Origin: Streptomyces coryli | GTDB lineage: Bacteria; Actinomycetota; Actinomycetes; Streptomycetales; Streptomycetaceae | Direction of reading: 5' to 3' | DNA length: 35,460 nt | Assembly: GCF_011044975.1 (NCBI RefSeq) | Contig: NZ_JAAKZV010000063.1 | Coordinates: forward strand, 1-35,460 | In this document: positions 18,377-30,229 of the stretch, one piece after another | Layout: the number at the start of each line of letters is the position of its first letter | How positions within the stretch are numbered: the stretch's first letter is position 1 | Translations under genes and position numbers: made by a program | The notes under the pieces: model-generated | What the model was told of the DNA's origin: nothing | The model's input: the letters and a program-made list of their open reading frames with translations, nothing else | Database searches by the model: none

Positions 18377-19840
18377 TCAGCGCGACCGCGCCTTGAAGGC
18401 CGCCTTCCTGGCCTCCTTCGCCACCTGCCGGTCCGGGTGCAGCCGCCCCATCGCCTCCAGCACCTCAGGCGTCGACGGGTGGTCCGTACGCCAGATCGTG
18501 TCGAAGAAGCCGGCGTTCTGCCCGACCAGCCCCTCGACGAGGTCGCGGAGCTCCGCCGAGTCGTCGTACGGGCCGCCGAGCTGCGCGGCGATGGTGTCGA
18601 CGGTCAGCCAGTAGACCGTGTCCTCCGCGGGCGCCGGCACGTCCGCGGCGCCGCGCTCGGTGAGCCAGACCCGGGCCAGGCCGCCGAGGTGGTGGTCGTC
18701 GAGCACCTCGCGGAGCGCTGGCTCGGCGGCCGGGCCGAGCATGGAGAGCGTCTGCTGGGCGGCCAGCCGGCGCCGCGGCCCGCGGCCGTCGTCGCCGCGC
18801 GCGGCCGCGAGCAGGTCGCGCGCCGCCTCGGCCTCGTCGCGGTCCGCCAGCCACAGCGTCGCCTCGCTGCGGGCCGCCGCGTCCGCGTACTCGGGCAGCG
18901 CCTCCAGCAGCGCGTCCGCACCCTTGTCGGCCAGGTCGCCGACGAGCGGCGCGTCCACGCCGTCGTCGATCATCCGCTCGCGGAGCCCGTAGACCCCGAG
19001 CGGCGTCAGCCGCACCACCCCGTACCGGCTGACGTCCTCGTCCTCGTCGGACGCCACCTCGGCAGGCCCGTTGTCGTCGACCGCCGCGATCAGCGCCTCG
19101 TCCACCGGCCGGTACGCCACCATGCCGGTCTGCTCCAGCAGCCGGAACTGGTCGTCGAGGCGCATCATCGCCTCGGACACCTCCTGCAGCACCTCGTCGG
19201 TCGGCTCGTCCATGTCCTCCGGTACGACCATGGACGCCGCGAGCGCGGGCAGCGGCACCGCGCCGTCGCCGTCCTCCATGGCGGTGAGGAAGTAGAGGTT
19301 GGCGAGGACCCCGTCGAGGAAGTCCGCGTCGGCGTCCGGGTCCCAGTCGAGCTCGTCGAGGTCCAGCTCGCCGTCCTCGCCGAGCTGCTCGACGAGGCCG
19401 CTGAGGTCGGGTGCGGCCGCGTCGGAGAGCACCGACTCGCAGGCCGTCAGCCACAGCCCGAGGATGTCCTGCGGCGAGCCCTTGCCGACGAGCGCGAGCT
19501 CCTCGCCGTGGGTGACGGTGCCCGCGGAGTCGGCGTCCTCGTCCCCCTCCGCGGACTCATCGGTCTGCTCGACCTCCACCAGGCCCGTATCGACGGCGAT
19601 CCGCCACGCGTCGTCGGCGTGCGCCAGATCCTCCTCGCTCTCGCCGAGGCCGAGCTGCTTCGCCGCCGCCCGCAGGTCGTCGTCGAGCAGCTCGCCGCCG
19701 GCGCCGACCCGGGTCTGCGGCCCCGACCACCGCGCCAGCACCACGGCGTGGGCGAACAGCGGCGCGGACAGCGCCGCTCGCGCGAGCTCCGCCTCGTCGG
19801 GCAGCTGCACCGGCGGAAGGGAGGGGGACTGAGCGGGCAT
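18377..19840 (-). CDS. Acidic conserved hypothetical protein with HEAT-like C-terminal half
   Basis: 487 residues from ATG 19840 (GGAG 6 nt upstream). The protein is very acidic, with Asp/Glu-rich runs around residues 95-110 and 150-175. The N-terminal third has LGLGESEEDLAHADDAWRIAVDTGLV, read in two parts, and a LTPLGVYGLRERM segment that looks like the end of a winged-helix-type domain. The C-terminal half (about 300-400) shows repeated helix pairs (ADALLEALPEYADAAAR; AAQQTLSMLGPAAEPALREV) like HEAT or Armadillo repeats. I know similar Streptomyces proteins only as hypotheticals. No signal peptide or membrane helix is present. It is monocistronic, with terminators on both sides. Confidence 0.8.
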   Translation of the reverse strand: MPAQSPSLPPVQLPDEAELARAALSAPLFAHAVVLARWSGPQTRVGAGGELLDDDLRAAAKQLGLGESEEDLAHADDAWRIAVDTGLVEVEQTDESAEGDEDADSAGTVTHGEELALVGKGSPQDILGLWLTACESVLSDAAAPDLSGLVEQLGEDGELDLDELDWDPDADADFLDGVLANLYFLTAMEDGDGAVPLPALAASMVVPEDMDEPTDEVLQEVSEAMMRLDDQFRLLEQTGMVAYRPVDEALIAAVDDNGPAEVASDEDEDVSRYGVVRLTPLGVYGLRERMIDDGVDAPLVGDLADKGADALLEALPEYADAAARSEATLWLADRDEAEAARDLLAAARGDDGRGPRRRLAAQQTLSMLGPAAEPALREVLDDHHLGGLARVWLTERGAADVPAPAEDTVYWLTVDTIAAQLGGPYDDSAELRDLVEGLVGQNAGFFDTIWRTDHPSTPEVLEAMGRLHPDRQVAKEARKAAFKARSR

Positions 19841-19888
19841 CACGGCTCCATCGGACCTGGACGAATCGGGCGCTGCCCAAGCGTAGCC

Positions 19889-19948: not shown

Positions 19949-21334
19949 TCATGAACCGGCCCCCGGGAGCACCGGCTTGATCCGGAACAGCTGGTCGCCG
20001 GACTGGCCGACCAGGTGACTGCCGTCGAACATCAACTCCGGCGCGACGCCCTCCTGTATGGGCACCTCCCCCAGATCCACCGTGGCCTTCCAGCGCACCG
20101 CACCGCTGCCCAGGTCGAGGCCCACCAACTGCCCGGCGGGGCTCATGAGGTACGCCACCCGGTGCTCGAGGTCGACCACCGGCGGGGAGACCAGCTCGCT
20201 CATCTTCGGCGAGCCGGCGGGGGCGGCCTCCATGCGCAGCTCCAGTCCGTGCTGCCGGGTCCACAGCCGCTTGCCGTCCGCGGCCCGGTATGCGGATACC
20301 GAGCTGTTGCCCTGCGCCAGGATGACGCCGTCCGCGACCACGTACCCCGGGAAGCCCTTGACCGGGTGGCGCGACACCTTGCCCGAGCTCGTATCGACGC
20401 GGACCAGGTCGATGGAGCCCTTGCCGCTCATGTCCTTCTTCGTGAAGGACTCCCGGCCGCCGCCCGGCGCGGCGAGCAGCACCGCATCGCCGTCGGTGCC
20501 GAGATACGCCGTATTCGCCCGGACCGTCGCCACCGTCTGCGGCCGGCCGGTGTCCGGATCCAGCCGTACGAGCGAGCTCTCCTTGGCGGCGCCCTTGCCG
20601 GCCGGCGAGCACGGCAGATACGGCACGCCCGCGATCACGGCGCGATCGCAGTCGGCGTTCTTCCACCGGTGCTGCCACAGCTCCTTGCCCGACTTCGCGT
20701 CCAGCGCCTTGACGCTCCGGAAGCTCGGGGAGTTCGCGAGCACCTTGTCGCCGAAGAGCATGGCGGCGATGCGGTCGCGGTGCGAGTCGGCCATCTCGTG
20801 CCGCCACAGCTCGCGATGGCTGCCGGTGTCCAGCGCGACCAGGTCGGTGCCGGTGTCGGACGTGCGCGGCGCGTGTTCGGCGAAGGTGTACAGCACCCCG
20901 TCGCGTACCCCCGGCAGCACCGCGGCGGGCGAAGCACCGGTGGCGTCGCCCTTGGACTTCCGGGTCCATTCGACCTTTCCGGTACGGGCGTCCACGCCGA
21001 CGGCGTCGTACCGCGGCCCCTGGCAGTACACGGCACCGGACCCGAGCGTGCACGCGTCCCACGCCTTGCCGGGCAGCGTGGCCCGCCACGCGAGCTTGCT
21101 CTTCTGGCTCGGCGGCCCGGCCGGCCGCGCCTCACCCCCGCCCGGGCCGTTGGCGAAGACGGTGCCGACGCAGATGCCGGCGAGGCCGAGGGCGGTGCCC
21201 AGCGCCCGGGCCGCGTTCCGCCGCCGGCGGCGCCGCATGACGCGGTCGGCGACTCCCACGGGCCCCGAAGGACCCTCGGGGTGCCAGTCCTTCAGGGCCT
21301 CGCGGACGGCGCGGTCCAGCTGGTCGGTGGTCAT
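19949..21334 (-). CDS. Single-pass membrane beta-propeller protein (PQQ-like repeats), partner of SigE-type sigma 1
   Basis: 461 residues. A short cytosolic N-terminus (1-41) contains ADRVMRRRRRRNAARA, then one membrane helix (about 42-62) and a large outside domain. That domain has PQQ/BamB-like propeller strands with the repeated pattern ARTGKVEWTRKS, LDTGSHRELWRHEM, DAKSGKELWQHRW and AADGKRLWTRQH. Pairs of Cys suggest disulfides. The ATG overlaps the TGA of the sigma factor gene by 4 bp, so the two are made together. By position and topology it is a candidate anti-sigma or co-sensor; this role is inference, because no ZAS motif is present. The second module at 24866 has the same layout and a related cytosolic motif. 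Confidence 0.85.
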   Translation of the reverse strand: MTTDQLDRAVREALKDWHPEGPSGPVGVADRVMRRRRRRNAARALGTALGLAGICVGTVFANGPGGGEARPAGPPSQKSKLAWRATLPGKAWDACTLGSGAVYCQGPRYDAVGVDARTGKVEWTRKSKGDATGASPAAVLPGVRDGVLYTFAEHAPRTSDTGTDLVALDTGSHRELWRHEMADSHRDRIAAMLFGDKVLANSPSFRSVKALDAKSGKELWQHRWKNADCDRAVIAGVPYLPCSPAGKGAAKESSLVRLDPDTGRPQTVATVRANTAYLGTDGDAVLLAAPGGGRESFTKKDMSGKGSIDLVRVDTSSGKVSRHPVKGFPGYVVADGVILAQGNSSVSAYRAADGKRLWTRQHGLELRMEAAPAGSPKMSELVSPPVVDLEHRVAYLMSPAGQLVGLDLGSGAVRWKATVDLGEVPIQEGVAPELMFDGSHLVGQSGDQLFRIKPVLPGAGS

Positions 21335-21885
21335 GCGCGGGCTCCCTTCGGGGCGTTGCCGAGTGGTGCGGTGATTGCGTCGGCCGCCGGACCGCCGCCG
21401 AGCTCGGGCGCCTGCGCCCGCAGCCGGGCGAGCGACCGGTGGGTGGTGCTGCGTACGGTGCCGATCGAGCAGCCCAGCACGGCCGCCACCTCGCTCTCCG
21501 ACAGATCCTCGAAATAGCGCAGCACCAGCACCGTGCGCTGCCGCGCGGTGAGCCGGGCCAGCGCCTGCCGGACGGTGATCCGCAGGTCGGCGGCGCCGGT
21601 GCCGTCGGCGACGCCGGCGTCCCTGGGCGGCGCGGCGAACGTCGGCTCGCGGTGCGGCCGGCGCAGCCGCCAGCGGCTGATCTGCTGCCGGTACATCACC
21701 TTGCGTACATACGCCTCCGGGTTCTCCACGTGCCGCCAGCGGCCGAGCGCCTTCATGAGCGCGCTCTGCACCAGGTCCTCCGCCTCGTGCCGGTCGCCGC
21801 CGGTGAGCAGGTTCGCCAGCCGCAGCAGCGCGGACCACCGGGCGTCGACGAACTCCCGGAAACTCTCGTTGTCCTGTGGGTCCAT
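21331..21885 (-). CDS. SigE-family ECF RNA polymerase sigma factor 1
   Basis: 184 residues. Region 2 (about 9-75) has SFREFVDARWSALLRLANLL, AEDLVQSALMKALGRW and YVRKVMYRQQISRWRLRR; region 4 (about 105-160) has LTARQRTVLVLRYFEDLSES and CSIGTVRSTTHRSLARLR. This is the actinobacterial SigE-family type (TIGR02983 style). ATG 21885 is preceded by GGGGAGGG. The gene is translationally coupled to the membrane beta-propeller gene. Upstream, AGGCATAG and CGTCTT are 17 bp apart, as in front of the paralogue at 26670, which suggests that each gene is read by itself or by its relative. It is divergent from the ExeM-like nuclease gene. Confidence 0.94.
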   Translation of the reverse strand: MDPQDNESFREFVDARWSALLRLANLLTGGDRHEAEDLVQSALMKALGRWRHVENPEAYVRKVMYRQQISRWRLRRPHREPTFAAPPRDAGVADGTGAADLRITVRQALARLTARQRTVLVLRYFEDLSESEVAAVLGCSIGTVRSTTHRSLARLRAQAPELGGGPAADAITAPLGNAPKGARA

Positions 21886-21913
21886 GGGGCCCTCCCCTTC
21901 CCTCACGCCGTCA

Positions 21914-21944
21914 AAGACGTGCGGGGTCCCCGCCATCTATGCCT
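21914..21944 (-). promoter_or_regulatory. Shared bipartite promoter-like motif, sigma gene 1
   Basis: On the minus strand AGGCATAG (21944-21937) and CGTCTT (21919-21914) are separated by 17 bp. The same two blocks with the same spacing precede sigma gene 2. CGTC is a usual -10 core of ECF promoters. Confidence 0.55.
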
Positions 21945-21997
21945 GCCGCCGCGGACTTTCTTCCCCGGGATTTTGCCTGCCGGCTCCCTGCCGAACC

Positions 21998-22027
21998 TTG
22001 ACAAGGACCATGCCAGGACAACAGATT
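21998..22027 (+). promoter_or_regulatory. Candidate promoter of the ExeM-like nuclease gene
   Basis: TTGACA (21998-22003) and CAGATT (22022-22027) are 18 bp apart, 35 bp before GTG 22063. The -35 is perfect; the -10 is fair. Confidence 0.45.
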
Positions 22028-22062
22028 GACGCGCGTAGACGAACTCACTCCGGAGGCCGACC

Positions 22063-23886
22063 GTGCCCAACCGTCCCGTCATGTCCCGCCGTTCCCTCGC
22101 CATCGCCGCCGCGACGGCCACCGCGCTCACGGCGGGGCTGCTCACCGCGCTGCCGTCCGCGTCCGCCGCCGAGGTCCGTATCCACGACATCCAGGGCGCG
22201 GGCCGCCAGTCCCCGCTCGCCGGCCAGACGGTCGCGGAGGTGCCAGGGGTCGTCACCGGCGTCCGGGGCTACGGCTCCGCGCGCGGCTTCTGGTTCCAGG
22301 ACCCGGACGCGGACGGTGAAGCGGCCACCAGCGAGGGCGTGTTCGTCTTCACCGGCAGCACGACGCCGACCGTGAAGGCGGGTGATTCGGTCCGGGTCTC
22401 CGGCACCGTCACCGAGTACGTCCCCGGCGGCGCCTCGTCCGGCAACCAGTCGCTCACCCAGATCACCAAGCCCACGGTGACCCCCGTCGAGTCCGGCGCG
22501 GAGATACCCGCGGCCCAGCAGCTCACCGCCGACGAGATACCCGACGCCTACACCGCCGACGGCGACCTCAACGCCCTCCCGCTGAAGCCGGACGCCTACG
22601 CCCTGGACCGCTGGGAGTCCCTGGAGGGCATGAACGTCTCGGTCACGGACGCCCGCGTCGTCGGCGCCACGGACGCGTTCAACGAGCTGTGGGCCACCGT
22701 GAAGCCGGACGAGAACCCGACCCGCCGCGGCGGCACCCGCTACGGCTCGTACACCTCGCAGAACGGCGGCAGACTGCAGATCCAGCAGCTGGTGCCGATC
22801 TCCGAGCACCCCTTTCCGAAGGCGAACGTCGGCGACGTCGTCACCGGCACCACCGAAGGCCCGCTGGACTACAACCAGTTCGGCGGCTACACCCTCACCT
22901 CCCGCACCCCGGTCGAGACCGAGGACCGCGGGCTCACCCGCGAGACCACCCGCGAGCAGGACCGCGATCAGCTCGCCGTCGCCACGTACAACGTCGAGAA
23001 CCTGGACCCGGGCGATCCGCAGGAGAAGTTCGACAAGCTCGCCGAGGCCGTCGTCGCGAACCTCAGGTCGCCCGACGTCGTCGCCCTGGAGGAGGTCCAG
23101 GACGACAACGGCGCGAAGAACGACGGCACGGTGTCGGCCGAAGCCACGCTGAAGAAGCTCACCGACGCCATCGCGGCGGCCGGCGGCCCGCGCTACGACT
23201 GGCGGCAGATCGACCCGGCCGACAAGCAGGACGGCGGCGAGCCCGGCGGCAACATCCGCCAGGCCTTCCTCTTCAACCCGGACCGGGTGTCCTTCACCGA
23301 CCGCGCCCCTGGCGACGCCACCACCCCGACGGAGGTGACGACGGTGAAGGGCCGCGCCGCCCTCACCCACTCCCCCGGCCGCATCGCCCCGGCGGACGCG
23401 GCGTGGAAGGACAGCCGCAAGCCCCTCGCCGGCGAGTTCGTCTTCCGCGGCCGGACGGTCTTCGTCATCGCCAACCACTTCTCCTCGAAGGGCGGCGACC
23501 AGGGCCTGACCGCCGCGACGCAGCCGCCGAACCGCTCGTCGGAAGCCCGGCGCACCGAGCAGGCCAAGCTGGTCAACGCCTTCGTGAAGGACATCCGCGG
23601 CAAGCAGCGGTCGGCCCGCACGGTGGTGCTCGGGGACATCAACGACTTCGAGTTCTCGGCGACGACGAAGGCCCTCACCGCGGACCGGGCGCTGCGTGCG
23701 GCGGCGTACGAACTGCCGCGGGCCGAGCGCTATTCGTACGTCTACCAGGGCAACTCGCAGATCCTCGACCAGATCCTGGTCAGCCCGTCGATCGACGACT
23801 TCGACTACGACGTGGTGCACATCAACGCCGAGTTCCACGACCAGAACAGCGACCACGACCCGGGCGTGCTGCGCTTCGAGCCCTAG
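22063..23886 (+). CDS. Secreted ExeM-like endonuclease/exonuclease/phosphatase protein
   Basis: 607 residues from GTG 22063 (GGAGG upstream). An export signal with MSRRSLAIAAATAT and an Ala-rich core ends at about ASA|AE (residue 36); the RR pair would allow Tat export. An OB-like N-terminal part (about 37-290) precedes the EEP catalytic domain. Its residues are visible: N310 in YNVENLDP, E344 in LEEVQDD, H472 in IANHFSSKGGD, D525 and N527 in LGDINDFE, D569 in QILDQIL, and D597-H598 in NSDHDPG. This arrangement is that of extracellular nucleases such as ExeM, which degrade DNA and supply phosphate and nucleotides. No PHO box is seen before it. Confidence 0.92.
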   Translation: MPNRPVMSRRSLAIAAATATALTAGLLTALPSASAAEVRIHDIQGAGRQSPLAGQTVAEVPGVVTGVRGYGSARGFWFQDPDADGEAATSEGVFVFTGSTTPTVKAGDSVRVSGTVTEYVPGGASSGNQSLTQITKPTVTPVESGAEIPAAQQLTADEIPDAYTADGDLNALPLKPDAYALDRWESLEGMNVSVTDARVVGATDAFNELWATVKPDENPTRRGGTRYGSYTSQNGGRLQIQQLVPISEHPFPKANVGDVVTGTTEGPLDYNQFGGYTLTSRTPVETEDRGLTRETTREQDRDQLAVATYNVENLDPGDPQEKFDKLAEAVVANLRSPDVVALEEVQDDNGAKNDGTVSAEATLKKLTDAIAAAGGPRYDWRQIDPADKQDGGEPGGNIRQAFLFNPDRVSFTDRAPGDATTPTEVTTVKGRAALTHSPGRIAPADAAWKDSRKPLAGEFVFRGRTVFVIANHFSSKGGDQGLTAATQPPNRSSEARRTEQAKLVNAFVKDIRGKQRSARTVVLGDINDFEFSATTKALTADRALRAAAYELPRAERYSYVYQGNSQILDQILVSPSIDDFDYDVVHINAEFHDQNSDHDPGVLRFEP

Positions 23887-23893
23887 GAACCGT

Positions 23894-23928
23894 GTAGAAG
23901 AACTACGAGGAGTGAAGTAGAAGAACTA
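23894..23928. repeat. 12-bp direct repeat upstream of the dapA-like gene
   Basis: GTAGAAGAACTA occurs exactly at 23894-23905 and 23917-23928, start to start 23 bp (about two helical turns). The segment is A-rich compared with everything around it. Confidence 0.75.
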
Positions 23929-23931
23929 AGT

Positions 23932-23954
23932 AGACCTTGCCGAAGGCGCGGTCT
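23932..23954 (+). promoter_or_regulatory. Small stem-loop before the dapA-like gene
   Basis: AGACC pairs with GGTCT and GCC with GGC around a GAA loop, with a 2-nt internal bulge on each side. It ends 13 bp before the ATG and could end the nuclease transcript or act in the dapA leader. Confidence 0.4.
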
Positions 23955-23967
23955 GACACTGTGCCAC

Positions 23968-24882
23968 ATGACCCTCACCCCCTTCGGCCGGACGGCCGCC
24001 GCAATGATCACGCCGTTCGACGCCGACGGCGCGCTCGACCTCGACGGGGCGTCGCGGCTCGCGGACCACCTGGTCTCCGCGGGCTGCGACGCCCTCGTGC
24101 TGAGCGGGACCACCGGCGAGGCGCCGACCACCACGGACGCCGAGAAGGCCGAGCTGGTACGGGCCGTGGTGGCGGCCGTCGGCTCAAGGGCCTTCATCAC
24201 CGCGGGAGTCGGCACCAACGACACCCGGCACTCGGTGGAGCTGGCCCGGCAGGCGGCCGCCGCCGGCGCCCACGGCCTCATCGTCGTCACCCCGTACTAC
24301 TCGAGGCCCACCCAGGACGGGATCGCCGACCACCTGAGCACGGTCGCCGACGCCACCGGCCTCCCGGTGCTGCTCTACGACATCCCGGGCCGCACGGGCG
24401 CGGGCACGGCTCTGGCGTACGACACGCTGCTCCGACTGGCCGAACACCCGCGCATCCTGGGGGTGAAGGACTGCGCCTACGACCCGCTGAAGTCGGCGCG
24501 GGTCCTCGGCGCCACCGACCTCGCCTACTACTCCGGCAGCGAGGAGAACAACCTCCCGCTCCGCGCCATCGGCGGCGCGGGCTTCGTCAGCACCGTCGCC
24601 AACGTCGCCCCGCGCGAAGTGATCGCCATCCTCGACGCCTTCGACGCGGGCGACACGGCCGAAGCCACCCGCCGCCACCTCGCCCTCGCACCGCTGGTCG
24701 AGGCGGTGATGTCAGCAGGCGTCGGCACCGTCATGGCAAAGGCCCTGCTGCGCGCCCAGGGCCTCCCGTCCGGCCCCGTACGCGGCCCGCTGAAGGACGC
24801 GGACGCGACGCAGACCGCCGAGCTGCTGGAGCAGCTGCGACGGTCCGCGCCGGAGGCGGAGCTGGTCAGCGCCTCGGCGTGA
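23968..24882 (+). CDS. dapA: 4-hydroxy-tetrahydrodipicolinate synthase (DapA) family aldolase
   Basis: 304 residues, full length. The enzyme condenses pyruvate with aspartate semialdehyde in the diaminopimelate/lysine pathway, in the cytosol. All key residues are in place: T48-T49 in SGTTGEAPT, Y111 in VTPYYSRPTQ, Y137 and R142 in LLYDIPGRTG, and the Schiff-base lysine K167 in GVKDCAYD. The conserved arginine implies the dapA reaction rather than a sialate or glucarate relative. No other dap gene is adjacent (dapD is about 5 kb away on the other strand), so it may be one of several paralogues. ATG 23968 lacks a clear ribosome site. Its end overlaps the convergent propeller gene by 17 bp. Confidence 0.9.
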   Translation: MTLTPFGRTAAAMITPFDADGALDLDGASRLADHLVSAGCDALVLSGTTGEAPTTTDAEKAELVRAVVAAVGSRAFITAGVGTNDTRHSVELARQAAAAGAHGLIVVTPYYSRPTQDGIADHLSTVADATGLPVLLYDIPGRTGAGTALAYDTLLRLAEHPRILGVKDCAYDPLKSARVLGATDLAYYSGSEENNLPLRAIGGAGFVSTVANVAPREVIAILDAFDAGDTAEATRRHLALAPLVEAVMSAGVGTVMAKALLRAQGLPSGPVRGPLKDADATQTAELLEQLRRSAPEAELVSASA

Positions 24883-26119
24883 AGACCGCGGTCCAGCGAC
24901 CGGGCGCGTCGTCCTTCTTGCCGCGGCCGCCGGTCAGCACCGTAGTGGTCTCCTTCTCGATGTCGACGAGCACCAGTTCGTTGTCGAACTCGCCCCTGCC
25001 CTTCCCGCACACGCCCTCGTGGCAGTCCCAGGCGATAACCCGCTTGCTGTCGGCCCAGGCCAAGAGCTGCTGGCCGGGGATTTCCTTCGCCGGCTTGCCG
25101 GTGTCCGGGTCGAGGAGATACGAGCTGGTCTTGTTGCCCTCGCCGGCGAAGTCACCCGCCATGTAGGTGCCGTCGGGCGACAGGCCCGCGGTGGGGTAGC
25201 CGCGGTGCTTCTCCTTCGGCGGGGCCGGGACCTGCTTGCCGTCCGTCGTCAGGAAGCGGATGTACGGCTTCGCCGACATGAACTCGTACAGGAGCGTCCC
25301 GTCGGCGTTCCAGCCGAAGTCCTCGCGGGGGTTGACGTGCGACGACAGCGGCATGCCCTTCGGCAGATCCAGGTCCTTCGGGTATCCCACCCGGTGATAG
25401 ACCGCCTCGCCGGAGGCCACGTCGACGATGTAGAAGCCGGTCCGGCTCGCCTTCGGACCGGGCTGGTCCTTGCCGTTGACCTTCTCCTTGGCATCCCAGA
25501 AGCGGCCGTCCGGATTGCGCGCATACGCGGTCGCCACCAGCCGCTTGCCGTCAGGGGAGAACTCGACGCCTCCCACGCCCTTCGGCACCAGGATCCAGCG
25601 GTCGACCTTCCAGGTGTCGAGGTTCAGGATGCCGATCCGGTCGGCGGGCAGACCGCGTTCGAGCACGGCGGCCTGCTGCATGCCGGGGGCCACGTCCAGC
25701 CAGGCCCAGTTGGTCTTCTCGTACCGCTTCGTCGCCGGGTGGTAGAGGTGCCAGACCGGGGTGAGATCCCACTCCTTGCCCGGCAGCTTCTTCTTGTGGT
25801 TCTGGCGGTACGCCGACACCGCCACGTCCCCGGCCGCCACCAGCTGGCGCGGCGGCGACTGGTCCGGCCGGGCGATGATGTCCTGCTGCGGGATCTCCAC
25901 CGCCGGGTCCGAGCCCCCTGTGCCCGGACCGAGCAGCGGAACCGCCACCGCCACGGCGACGATCGCGGCGACCGCCGTGATCAGCCCGGCGTATCTGCGG
26001 GTGCGGCGGCGGGAGCGGGTGCGCAGGACGCGGTCCGCGAGGTCCGGCTGTACCGCCGCCTCCTTCTTGTCGTCCGCGAGGTCGCGCAGCGACGCGCGCA
26101 CGAGCTCTTCGACATTCAC
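24866..26119 (-). CDS. Single-pass membrane beta-propeller protein (TolB/WD40-like), partner of SigE-type sigma 2
   Basis: 417 residues from GTG 26119, which overlaps the sigma stop codon by 4 bp (GTGA). The cytosolic N-terminus (1-43) has LVRASLRDLADDKK and ADRVLRTRSRRRTRR, then a membrane helix (about 44-63). The outside part shows TolB/WD-like strands with GGVEFSPDGKRLVATAY, EDFGWNADGTLLYEF and PTAGLSPDGTYMAGDF. One Cys pair (DCHEGVCGKG) lies near the C-terminus. The layout mirrors the partner of sigma 1, and the cytosolic motif ADRV(M/L)R-x-R/S-RR is shared, although the propellers differ. A role as sensor or anti-sigma is inferred. It overlaps the convergent dapA-like gene by 17 bp. Confidence 0.84.
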   Translation of the reverse strand: MNVEELVRASLRDLADDKKEAAVQPDLADRVLRTRSRRRTRRYAGLITAVAAIVAVAVAVPLLGPGTGGSDPAVEIPQQDIIARPDQSPPRQLVAAGDVAVSAYRQNHKKKLPGKEWDLTPVWHLYHPATKRYEKTNWAWLDVAPGMQQAAVLERGLPADRIGILNLDTWKVDRWILVPKGVGGVEFSPDGKRLVATAYARNPDGRFWDAKEKVNGKDQPGPKASRTGFYIVDVASGEAVYHRVGYPKDLDLPKGMPLSSHVNPREDFGWNADGTLLYEFMSAKPYIRFLTTDGKQVPAPPKEKHRGYPTAGLSPDGTYMAGDFAGEGNKTSSYLLDPDTGKPAKEIPGQQLLAWADSKRVIAWDCHEGVCGKGRGEFDNELVLVDIEKETTTVLTGGRGKKDDAPGRWTAVFTPRR

Positions 26120-26670
26120 GGCCTTACCTCCGTCAGGTGGTTCGGGCCGCCCTTGAGGGCGTCACCCGAGGCGAGGGCGGAGAGTTCGGGGGCCATGGTG
26201 CGGAGCTTGGCCAGGGAGCGGCGGGTGGTGCTGCGGACGGTGCCGACCGAGCAGCCGAGCAGTTCGGCGACGTCGGCCTCCGGCAGGTCCTCGTAATAGC
26301 GCAGCACGAGCATCGTGCGCTGCCTGGCGGTCAGCCGGCGCAGCGCCTTGCCCATGACGAGCCGCAGTTCCACGGCGTGCGCGGCGTCGCCGGCCGGAGT
26401 GGTCAGCTCCGGCGGTTCGGCGACGCTGTGCTCGCGGGCGCGGCCGCGCAGCCGCCAGCGGCTGATCTGCTGGCGGTAGAGGACCTGGCGGACGTATGCC
26501 TCCGGCTCCTCGATGCGCTGCCAGCGGCCTGCCGCCTTGATCAGCGCGTTCTGCAGCAGGTCCTCGGCGGCGCCGCGGTCCCCTCCGCTGAGCAGCAGCG
26601 CGACTCTGAGCAGCACACTGGATCTGCTCTCCACGAACTCCCGGAAACTGGCCTCACTCGCACTGTCCAC
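26116..26670 (-). CDS. SigE-family ECF RNA polymerase sigma factor 2
   Basis: 184 residues, the same length as sigma 1 and clearly its paralogue. Region 2 has SFREFVESRSSVLLRVALLL, AEDLLQNALIKAAGRW and YVRQVLYRQQISRWRLRG; region 4 has LTARQRTMLVLRYYEDLPEA and CSVGTVRSTTRRSLAKLR. The start is GTG 26670 with a very G-rich ribosome site (GGGGAGGGG). It is coupled to the membrane propeller gene through GTGA. The 49-nt leader contains a perfect palindrome AGCACCGGTGCT (26700-26711). Upstream is the same AGGCATAG-N17-CGTCTT motif as for sigma 1, here overlapping the stop codon of the EI24-like gene. Confidence 0.94.
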   Translation of the reverse strand: MDSASEASFREFVESRSSVLLRVALLLSGGDRGAAEDLLQNALIKAAGRWQRIEEPEAYVRQVLYRQQISRWRLRGRAREHSVAEPPELTTPAGDAAHAVELRLVMGKALRRLTARQRTMLVLRYYEDLPEADVAELLGCSVGTVRSTTRRSLAKLRTMAPELSALASGDALKGGPNHLTEVRP

Positions 26671-26699
26671 CGCCCCCCTCCCCTTCTCTTCCGTTGGTA

Positions 26700-26711
26700 A
26701 GCACCGGTGCT
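26700..26711. promoter_or_regulatory. 12-bp palindrome in the leader of sigma gene 2
   Basis: AGCACCGGTGCT is a perfect palindrome about 7 bp downstream of the CGTCTT block. It may be an operator; it has no equivalent before sigma gene 1. Confidence 0.4.
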
Positions 26712-26718
26712 ATCCGGG

Positions 26719-26749
26719 AAGACGCTTCGGGGGGCGTGCTGCTATGCCT
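26719..26749 (-). promoter_or_regulatory. Shared bipartite promoter-like motif, sigma gene 2
   Basis: AGGCATAG (26749-26742) and CGTCTT (26724-26719) on the minus strand, 17 bp apart, identical in blocks and spacing to the motif before sigma gene 1. Confidence 0.55.
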
Positions 26750-27609: not shown

Positions 27610-29055
27610 TCAGCCGCCCTTCACCCGCAGCCGCAGCCCCAGTCCGGCCGGATCGGTGTAGCGCGAGGTGTCCGCCGCCAGGCCCTCGGCCGAGCCGGGG
27701 AAGAGCCAGAAGCCGCCGCGGAACACGCGGTATTGCGGGGCCGCGGCCACCACGTCGGCATACGTGTCGCCGTTGATGTCCAGCAGCGGGAAGTCGGCGT
27801 GGAAGCCGTGGTGGATCGTGCCCTTGTGGCGGGTGGGGACGCCCGGAGTGTCCAGGTCGAAGGCGGTCGCGCCGGCCGCGGTCGGCGGGCCGTGCGCGGC
27901 GCCCGGCAGCAGCGTGAAGCGGCCGTTGTCGTCGTCCTCGCCGGGGGTGTTGATCACCAGGTCGGGGCGGCGATCGCCGGTCACGTCGCCGGTGGCCGCG
28001 GGACCGAAGCGATCGGCACCTTGCGAGTCGCCCGGAATACCCGGAGTGTCCTGGCTGTAGACGGAATTGGGGCGTCCGGTGCCGGGACCTGACTTGGCCC
28101 CGTAGACGACCGTGAGCCGGCCGGCGCCGGGCTTGGGCGCGGGCGGCGGCATGTCGCCGTAGGAGAGCAGGTCGTCGATGCCGTCGCCGTCCACGTCGCC
28201 GGCCCGGGGCATGGTGCGGCCATCGGCGGTGGCATTGCCGAGGGTGCGCGGCAGCGGCATCCGGATCAGGCCCTGCGGACTGCCGCGGTAATAGCCCTCG
28301 ACCGGCGGCGGTGGCGGGTCGTCGTCCTCCTCTTCGCCCGTGTCGAGACTGAGGATCAGCGCGTCGTCGAAGCCGTCGCCGTTGAAGTCGCCCGTGAGGG
28401 GCCGGCCGCCGGCAGCGACGTCGAGGGCCGCGGTACGGGCGGGTGCCCCGTCCTTGCCGAACGGCCCGAACGCCACCGACCCCTTGCGCAGCCCGCCGGG
28501 GTTGCCGCCCTTGACGGCTGGAACGTGCCCGGGGTTGATCAGGTCGAGAGCGTCGTCGCCGTTCACGTCGGCCATCGCCCCGGCCGCGAAGTCCGCGGGC
28601 AGCTTGAGCGGCTGCGGGTCGCCGAGGCAGCCCGGGCCGCCCTTGATCACCACGGGGACCGGCGTACCGGGACCGTCCGGGTTCCGCTGGGCGAGCAGGT
28701 CCGTATAGCCGTCGCCGTCCAGGTCGCCGCGGGCGCCCGGGACCAGGCCGAGCTTGTCGAAGATGCGCACCCGGTGCCGGTCCAGGCCGCCCTTGCCGCC
28801 GTGGACGACCGCGACCTGGCTGCGGAGCAGCTGGGAGGAGGCGTCCCTGATCGACACGGTCGTCGCGTAGTCGTCGTATCCGTCCTGGTCCAGGTCACCC
28901 GCGCCCTTCGCGCCCCGGCCCTCCGGCCCGGAACGCTCGCCGCACTGCCCGGTCGCGCGACCGCCCTCCTCGGACCGCCCGGAGCCTGCACTGCCGCACC
29001 CGGCGAGCAGCACGGCCACACAGCCGGCTATTGCGGCGAGGGTGTGGGTACGCAA
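27610..29055 (-). CDS. FG-GAP repeat lipoprotein (integrin-like beta-propeller)
   Basis: 481 residues from a TTG start at 29055, chosen because GAGGAGG lies 4 nt upstream and the frame gives at once a lipoprotein signal. The lipobox LLAGC puts the lipidated Cys at residue 20, so the protein should be anchored outside the membrane. Seven calcium-binding FG-GAP cores can be read: DLDQDGYDDYAT, DLDGDGYTDLLA, DVNGDDALDLI, DFNGDGFDDALI, DVDGDGIDDLLS, DVTGDRRPDLVI and DINGDTYADVVA. Seven repeats agree with a complete seven-bladed propeller. An acidic/Pro insert (EEEDDDPPPPP) interrupts the middle. The function is unknown; adhesion or ligand binding is typical of the fold. Confidence 0.88.
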   Translation of the reverse strand: MRTHTLAAIAGCVAVLLAGCGSAGSGRSEEGGRATGQCGERSGPEGRGAKGAGDLDQDGYDDYATTVSIRDASSQLLRSQVAVVHGGKGGLDRHRVRIFDKLGLVPGARGDLDGDGYTDLLAQRNPDGPGTPVPVVIKGGPGCLGDPQPLKLPADFAAGAMADVNGDDALDLINPGHVPAVKGGNPGGLRKGSVAFGPFGKDGAPARTAALDVAAGGRPLTGDFNGDGFDDALILSLDTGEEEDDDPPPPPVEGYYRGSPQGLIRMPLPRTLGNATADGRTMPRAGDVDGDGIDDLLSYGDMPPPAPKPGAGRLTVVYGAKSGPGTGRPNSVYSQDTPGIPGDSQGADRFGPAATGDVTGDRRPDLVINTPGEDDDNGRFTLLPGAAHGPPTAAGATAFDLDTPGVPTRHKGTIHHGFHADFPLLDINGDTYADVVAAAPQYRVFRGGFWLFPGSAEGLAADTSRYTDPAGLGLRLRVKGG

Positions 29056-29152: not shown

Positions 29153-30145
29153 TCAGTTGTGGCTGTGCAGGACGTCGTTGAGGCCGCCCCAGACCGCGTT
29201 GTTCGGGCGGGCTTCCACCGTGCCGGTGACCGAGTTGCGGCGGAAGAGGATGTTGGAGGCGCCGGAGAGTTCGCGGGCCTTCACCACCTGGCCGTCGGGC
29301 ATCGTGACGCGGGTGCCCGCGGTGACGTAGAGGCCGGCCTCGACCACGCACTCGTCCCCGAGGGCGATGCCGACGCCCGCCTCGGCGCCGACGAGGCAGC
29401 GCTCGCCGATGGTGATGCGGACGTTGCCGCCGCCGGACAGGGTGCCCATGGTGGACGCGCCGCCGCCGATGTCGGAGCCGTCGCCGACGACGACGCCCGC
29501 CGAGATGCGGCCCTCGACCATCGAGGTGCCGAGGGTGCCGGCGTTGAAGTTGACGAAGCCCTCGTGCATGACGGTGGTGCCCGCGGCGAGGTGCGCGCCG
29601 AGCCGGACCCGGTCGGCGTCGCCGATCCGGACCCCGGCCGGGGCGACGTAATCCGTCATCCGCGGGAACTTGTCCACGCTGGTGACCGCCAGGTGCAGCC
29701 CGTCGGCGCGGGCGTTCAGCCGCGCCTCCTCCAGCTTGTCGACCGGCACCGGGCCGAGGTTCGTCCAGGCCACGTTGGCGAGGAGGCCGAACTGCCCGTC
29801 CAGGCTGATGCTGTGCGGCTTGACCAGCCGGTGCGAGAGCAGGTGCAGGCGCAGGTAGACGTCGTGCGCGTCGGCCGGCTTCTCGGCGAGCGAGGAGATC
29901 ACGGTACGGACGGCGACGATCTCCACGCCGCGGCGCGGGTCCGGGCCGAGGGCCTTGGGCGCGGCGGCGCCCAGCAGCTCGGCGGCGCGCTCGGCGTCCA
30001 GCCGCTCGGTCCCGGCGGGGCCGGGCGCCTCGGCCAGCTCGGGCGCCGGGAACCAGGTGTCCAGGACGGTGCCGTCCGCGGCGACGGTGGCCAGGCCGGC
30101 GGCGACGGCGCCGGTGGTGGTGAGGGTGTCGTTCGTAGCAGTCAC
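29153..30145 (-). CDS. dapD: Tetrahydrodipicolinate N-succinyltransferase (DapD), actinobacterial type
   Basis: 330 residues from GTG 30145. It transfers succinyl from succinyl-CoA to tetrahydrodipicolinate in the diaminopimelate/lysine pathway. The C-terminal half is a left-handed beta helix with hexapeptide repeats ([60 protein letters not shown]). The signature [20 protein letters not shown] and [14 protein letters not shown] match the Mycobacterium-type DapD. The N-terminal part ([19 protein letters not shown]) binds the acceptor. Homologues are trimers in the cytosol. The start has TAGGTT 7 nt upstream, so it may be leaderless; AGGGGC directly before the GTG is too close for a normal ribosome site. 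Confidence 0.94.
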
Positions 30146-30152
30146 GCCCCTG

Positions 30153-30158
30153 AACCTA
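30153..30158 (-). promoter_or_regulatory. Candidate -10 box (TAGGTT) of dapD
   Basis: TAGGTT on the minus strand ends 7 nt before GTG 30145. Confidence 0.4.
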
Positions 30159-30229
30159 ACCGGACGGGGGGCCGGGAGGCGAACCGGTCTCGGACTGCGG
30201 GCGCCGCGCGCCGTGCCCATACCGGCCGC

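Follow-up and report, generated by a model that had tools for sequence, protein, structure and literature searches.

Actinomycetes carry dozens of extracytoplasmic function (ECF) sigma factors, and the control of many of them is obscure. How two such factors might be restrained, and how their control might be rewired, is the question raised by a stretch of Streptomyces coryli DNA (assembly GCF_011044975.1, contig NZ_JAAKZV010000063.1, positions 1-35,460, which we call the window). Its region 19949-26749 contains two modules, A and B, each comprising a SigE-family ECF sigma gene, an overlapping gene for a membrane protein with an outer propeller, and a promoter-like motif upstream. We consider it likely that each module pairs an autoregulated ECF sigma factor with a dedicated anti-sigma factor, which crosses the membrane once and has a short CnrY-like tail and an exchangeable sensor. 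The sequence comparisons that carry this proposal bring out the gene anatomy, a dedicated and conserved promoter-like element, the exchange of sensors, and the co-divergence of sigma factor and tail.

Two modules and a conserved promoter-like element

Sigma B (26116..26670, minus strand, GTG start) and sigma A (21331..21885, minus strand, ATG start) score 184.4 and 185.6 bits, respectively, against a TIGR02983 cut-off of 141.55, are both 184 amino acids (aa) long, and share 58% identity. Each partner gene begins before its sigma gene has ended, with 4-bp overlaps of ATGA for partner A (461 aa, 19949..21334, minus strand) and GTGA for partner B (417 aa, 24866..26119, minus strand). Scanning the window for AGGCATAG-N15..19-CGTCTT returned exactly two matches, at 21914..21944 upstream of sigma A and at 26719..26749 upstream of sigma B, both on the minus strand with N17 spacing, a -35 like GGCATAG and a -10 like CGTCTT; we annotate them as putative autoregulatory ECF promoters. 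The absence of any match in 100 shuffles, together with the presence of the motif at the survey loci described below, rules out a chance occurrence. For sigma A, an automatic open reading frame call starts at an upstream ATG (21936, 201 aa), which we rejected as that codon sits within the motif; the ATG at 21885 is preceded by GGGGAGGG and gives the 184-aa product. The first-pass annotation had described two equally long SigE-family sigma genes on one strand, each sharing 4 bp with a gene whose single-pass product has a basic cytosolic tail and a large outer domain, with propellers of different types and a motif of identical spacing ahead of both. Each of these features is found again here, and the two modules are confirmed as real.

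Two collections of relatives were examined. The first set came from scanning species genomes with both sigma factors, because propeller B, used as a query on genome contigs, confirmed no relative; it holds 71 loci, or 73 sequences with the two window modules. For the survey, we compared sigma B with the genus of S. smaragdinus (Streptomyces group), 392 genomes in all, some of them also present in the first set. Matches at E <= 1e-48 occurred in 112 of the 392 genomes, and all 133 listed loci were read. The partner is WD-type at 104 of them, PQQ-type at 27, CU044_5270 at one and uncalled at one (L348). The expectation that related sigma genes would be followed by an overlapping partner gene holds almost throughout this sample, with a 4-bp overlap at 130 loci, a gap of 0 at two and one uncalled junction; the same overlap is found in 68 of the 73 first-set sequences. 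We conclude that the module family is widespread and coherent.

The motif, which had been predicted to precede related loci, does so almost without exception. CATAG-N17-CGTC lies upstream of the sigma gene at 119 of the 133 survey loci and GATAG-N17-CGTC at 13, all of the latter with PQQ-type partners, so that a conserved -35/-10 pair with fixed spacing is present at 132/133. The sole locus with neither form, L348, is a decayed module: its sigma gene carries an in-frame TAG, its partner is in two pieces that match only from residue 122, and its -35 element is gone, with CGTC kept and dapA next downstream. Upstream of the 71 first-set sigma genes we found GGCATAG-N17-CGTC at 47, another NNCATAG-N17-CGTC at 10 and GATAG-N17-CGTC at one, which brings the N17 element to 58, plus CATAG with N16 or N18 at two. 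GGCAACC stands ahead of CGTC at six distant loci, and no element was recognised at five (L055, L057, L059, L067, L068). The sequence of the spacer itself is variable among these loci. At loci found through partner proteins, GGCATAG or another NNCATAG precedes 29 of 30 B modules, while the A modules divide into NNCATAG (6/13) and GATAG (7/13). The remaining B locus, L204, has a propeller matching from residue 34 and no sigma gene in the fetched flank. In the PQQ-type subclade of L052 and L182-L188, GGGATAG or GTGATAG replaces GGCATAG with unchanged spacing, and the start of the recognition helix is altered. Actinacidiphila glaucinigra carries two B-type modules ~9 kb apart (L015, L016) with identical promoter spacers.

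Next, we examined how specific the motif is for these operons. In 20 genomes, AGGCATAG-N17-CGTC has 25 matches, 19 at module operons and six elsewhere, compared with five for an N14 spacing and 18 for the pattern read backwards. A relaxed search, with GGCATAG-N16-R-CGTC, found 22 matches across 12 genomes, of which 15 lie at operons (backward control 22), and a relaxed search of 147 genomes of the order found 31 (17 at operons, 14 not; backward control 64). In the relaxed searches the totals do not exceed the backward control, and the motif stands out by the position of its matches, not by their number. At the stringencies used we found no excess outside the operons that would point to a larger regulon, the off-operon matches being near or below control, and there may be weaker targets elsewhere. 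Among 25 non-operon motif loci, blastn alone detected shared DNA in three pairs only (L112/L164, L158/L170, L159/L167), each evidently between close relatives; the surroundings of 13 non-operon loci were inspected. Furthermore, among 30 SigE-family loci of four genomes, the element precedes 6/6 module-family loci and 1/24 others, the lone other locus (L082) having N16 spacing and a different outer domain. Because its off-operon matches stay near or below control level, the motif appears to be an autoregulatory ECF promoter dedicated to these operons.

The class of the -35 element follows the recognition helix of the sigma factor. Among the 73 sigma factors the helix reads GTVRS in 65, GTVKS in seven and is incomplete in one. 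All seven GTVKS loci are without CATAG or GATAG, five having GGCAACC and two nothing recognised, and three GTVRS loci are likewise without a recognised element; the association is a correlation over few lineages. In the S. coelicolor SigE promoters listed in PMC6767563, the -35 is mostly of the AAC type, for example GGCAACC, with a spacer of 16-17 bp. The -35 of the present family is of the CATAG type, unlike these. As the two window promoters are alike and the recognition helices of the two sigma factors nearly so, modules A and B could plausibly cross-regulate each other.

Exchange of the outer sensor

The outer domains of the two partners have little in common. That of A matches Pfam PQQ_2 (1.1e-20), and its AlphaFold model is a BamB-like propeller (best Foldseek E 1.9e-15, target template modelling (TM) score 0.55-0.72 for the top five). 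That of B, which occupies residues ~95-417, has no significant Pfam match and is modelled as a WD40/TolB-like propeller, with a best Foldseek E of 1e-8 and low TM-scores, <=0.47 among the matches listed. The AlphaFold2 input comprised 17 sequences for A and 49 for B. Between the outer domains phmmer found no similarity (E ~0.07-0.08), unlike the tails, which can be aligned. Four cysteines of partner A (95, 104, 229, 242) are present in 17/17 aligned A-type partners and may form two disulfides of a redox-sensitive sensor; Cys 366 and 371 of partner B occur in 29/49 sequences.

That the sensor part has been exchanged while the cytosolic part was kept, as the first-pass annotation proposed, is best shown by L025 of Streptomyces beijiangensis. 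This locus combines the motif and a B-like tail with an outer domain that scores 120.6 bits for CU044_5270 (cut-off 100). Its upstream and sigma DNA can be aligned to B loci (72-88% in the pieces listed), it is followed by the same dapA gene as B loci up to the contig end, and for 21 of the 25 matches listed the similarity of its partner to B partners stops between residues 54 and 78. We built a sigma tree from 47 of the 73 first-set sigma factors, 13 A loci found through partners and 24 of 30 paralog loci. L025 falls among the Streptomyces WD-type rows, with Shimodaira-Hasegawa-like approximate likelihood ratio test (SH-aLRT) values of 80-90 at the forks, and a value of 92 supports a single group of the PQQ-type rows. 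The tree leaves open which of the WD and PQQ types is ancestral, and a direction is given by L025 only. Since the survey locus L341 encodes the same protein as L025, the two count as one case of exchange. These observations support an exchange of the sensor in place, on the same tail, sigma factor and promoter. At L060, a motif variant and the tail are kept and the outer part is a Thr/Pro-rich stub.

Between the two modules lie an exonuclease/phosphatase-family gene (22063-23886, plus strand) and a dapA-like gene of the DHDPS family (23968-24882, plus strand), and a 488-aa gene lies at 18377-19843. The dapA-like gene next to module B is matched in the flank of 27 of the 71 first-set loci. At six loci (L004, L018, L019, L026, L027, L029) the 488-aa gene follows the exonuclease gene within ~350 bp, leaving no room for the A module that stands between the same genes in the window, and so A looks inserted between them in this lineage. 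Close A-type and B-type modules occur together in four genomes. In one of them (G261) a single contig carries both, at a distance of 2.2 Mb, and in the others (G001, G028, G219) they are on separate contigs. Elsewhere in the window, the gene at 27610-29055 encodes a protein with FG-GAP repeats and a lipoprotein-like start, and adjoins a tetrahydrodipicolinate succinyltransferase-like gene (29153-30220).

The cytosolic tail, its sigma factor and the rival explanations

In both window partners the most hydrophobic stretch begins at residue 44-45, after the basic tail; it is weak in A (1.59) compared with B (2.61, membrane helix ~45-63), and in 72 of the 73 sequences it begins at residue 35-47, the topology being inferred from hydrophobicity. 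The preceding ~42 residues are predicted to form two helices (3-17 and 27-44 in B; 3-15 and 29-36 in A, with low to modest predicted local distance difference test (pLDDT) values), joined by a Pro-containing linker and closed by an ADRV-x-x-R-RRR-like end. Residues A28, R30, L32 and R35 are conserved at 90-100% in 49 sequences. Looking for the zinc-binding motif of class I anti-sigma factors, we found that the first 42 residues of both window partners are free of Cys; seven of the 204 partner tails read contain any Cys.

We then asked whether sigma factor and tail have diverged together, using 79 and 153 deduplicated WD-type pairs; the values are distance correlations and not contacts. In the 79 pairs the sigma-tail correlation is 0.85, and 0.70 as a partial correlation given the outer domain, compared with 0.55 for the membrane/juxtamembrane part; seven chunks of the outer domain range from -0.22 to 0.51, and bootstrapping the tail minus the membrane part gave 0.07 to 0.25. 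With the 153 pairs divided into seven regions, sigma2 correlates with helix 1 (0.37, 0.29-0.44) and helix 2 (0.28, 0.17-0.36) and not with the membrane helix (-0.01), whereas sigma4 gives 0.04 with helix 1 and 0.17 with helix 2. Sigma4 is nearer in the DNA yet unlinked to helix 1, which argues against mere gene adjacency; sigma4 may also be less informative if it is less variable. Collectively, the comparisons support a co-divergence of sigma factor and tail beyond that of the outer domain. No natural fusion of sigma factor and tail turned up, in searches not aimed at fusions.

Autoregulation, an anti-sigma tail and exchangeable sensors together make the most economical mechanism. The ~42-residue cytosolic tail would bind the sigma factor and keep it at the membrane, and the outer propeller would sense a cell-envelope or extracellular ligand. 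Ligand binding or cleavage of the partner would then release the sigma factor, which with RNA polymerase would read GGCATAG-N17-CGTC ahead of its own operon, producing more sigma factor and more restraint. WD40/TolB-like, BamB/PQQ-like or CU044_5270-like outer domains would be interchangeable, tail and promoter remaining of one kind. In this scheme we infer the binding of the tail to the sigma factor, its inhibitory sign, the signal, and the use of the motif by the operon's own sigma factor.

Several observations weigh against this mechanism, and some of them favour its rivals. Confidence in the tail helices is low, the 10-residue mean pLDDT over the first 50 residues being 44-75 in B and <55 in A. 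A profile of 19 tails compared with solved chains gave five matches at E up to 10, none of them an anti-sigma factor, although the profile is short and a remote kinship possible. The correlations of sigma2 with the outer domain (0.26) and of sigma4 with the juxtamembrane stretch (0.16) in the 153 pairs indicate that shared ancestry is not fully removed, and a CnrY-type arrangement of helix 1 on sigma4 is not supported, as helix 1 co-diverges with sigma2. The mean pairwise identity of the tail barely exceeds that of the outer domain (0.48 vs 0.43), and an Arg-rich stretch ahead of a membrane helix is also expected under the positive-inside rule. These last two points suit the view that the propeller protein is the output, a common surface protein anchored in the membrane and transcribed together with the sigma factor, its basic tail being a topology signal only; so does the fact that we found the motif recurring at no other target than the module operon, whose product could then be the output. 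We nevertheless regard this as unlikely, given the four near-invariant tail residues, the survival of the tail through replacement of the outer domain, and a co-divergence of the sigma factor with the tail helices but not with the membrane helix.

The motif might instead be read by another ECF sigma factor or a DNA-binding regulator, and the operon be controlled from elsewhere. Three Nonomuraea relatives (L055, L057, L059), which have no motif despite a WD-type partner and a GTVRS sigma factor, fit this and count against autoregulation, and a precedent is S. coelicolor sigE, which, according to the passages of PMC6767563 that treat it, is not a target of its own product and is controlled by the two-component system CseBC. 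The two-part element with its ECF-type -10 and nearly strict N17 spacing, its presence at all six family loci compared with one of 24 other TIGR02983 loci, and a -35 class that tracks the recognition helix make such outside control improbable in our view. A partner that assists the sigma factor, as a positive cofactor or by recruiting it to the membrane, would leave the same co-divergence, since the sequences are silent on the sign of the interaction; as described in parts of PMC6767563 and PMC8103513, however, membrane partners of ECF sigma factors are typically anti-sigma factors, and we give this alternative very little weight.

Under the preferred reading, in which the partner restrains an autoregulated sigma factor, the family offers a testable rule made of a short tail module, interchangeable sensors and a readable promoter. 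One signalling chassis could be adapted to new signals by changing the outer sensor, and the family provides a case of sensor replacement in place at one chromosomal position, as well as a non-AAC ECF -35 element that is accompanied by a Lys/Arg difference in the sigma recognition helix. The motif could serve as a reporter to find the signals of propeller-type sensors. More tentatively, the sigma factor, the two-helix tail and the non-AAC -35 (GGCATAG) might be locked to their own promoter only, as a self-contained and possibly bistable switch that is repurposed by sensor replacement in place; if so, the output would be the surface sensor itself, or a few weak targets common to co-resident modules.

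Relation to known systems

We did not find the module family described among the records listed in searches of the open-licence PMC literature, a scope that leaves out the main ECF classification papers. A related layout is found in the CU044_5270 family (NF038083), whose membrane partners are often encoded in overlap with distant ECF genes (gap -4 to a weakly matching ECF gene in 14 of the 30 loci L219-L248, no sigma match in 12) and one of whose outer domains sits on a family tail in L025. Its tails differ and are often of a DLPPGRH type. Ahead of the sigma genes found at these loci we saw no CATAG/GATAG element. Among the 30 SigE-family loci of the four genomes, 19, including the six of the module family, lie within 11 bp of a gene with an N-terminal membrane helix, and the tails of those membrane partners (e.g. 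L079, L084, L087, L090, L092-L094, L097-L101) measure ~38 to 126 residues. At L080 and L081 a SigE-family sigma gene is followed by a lipoprotein-like gene; these may be the sigE-cseA locus.

S. coelicolor SigE, which we take to be the eponym of TIGR02983, is the closest comparison for the promoter. In the promoters given in PMC6767563 it shares the CGTC-type -10 and a 16-17 bp spacer, and differs in a -35 that is mostly of the AAC type compared with GGCATAG here; the same source, in the sections concerned, describes it as having no anti-sigma factor. As outlined in part of the review PMC8103513, BldN-RsbN of Streptomyces (class III anti-sigma) likewise pairs an actinomycete ECF sigma factor with a membrane-anchored anti-sigma factor; our tail profile gave no sequence match to this system, which we compare from the review's description. 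The fused sigma factors of ECF48, ECF52 and ECF53, such as SCO4117, also place an ECF sigma factor under a membrane helix and an outer domain, but, in the sections of PMC8999054 that cover them, as one protein with a zinc-finger anti-sigma domain, in contrast to two genes and the Cys-free tails of the window.

The closest comparison for the tail is CnrH-CnrY of Cupriavidus, a class II anti-sigma system. CnrY spans the membrane once and is encoded in an operon with CnrH. Its short two-helix cytosolic domain wraps the ECF sigma factor, as set out in the relevant part of PMC7406223. The present family resembles it in a single pass and a short cytosolic tail of two (here predicted) helices, and differs in its actinomycete host, in outer domains that are propellers or CU044_5270, in a tail without detectable sequence similarity, and in a co-divergence that points to sigma2 with helix 1 and not to sigma4 with helix 1.

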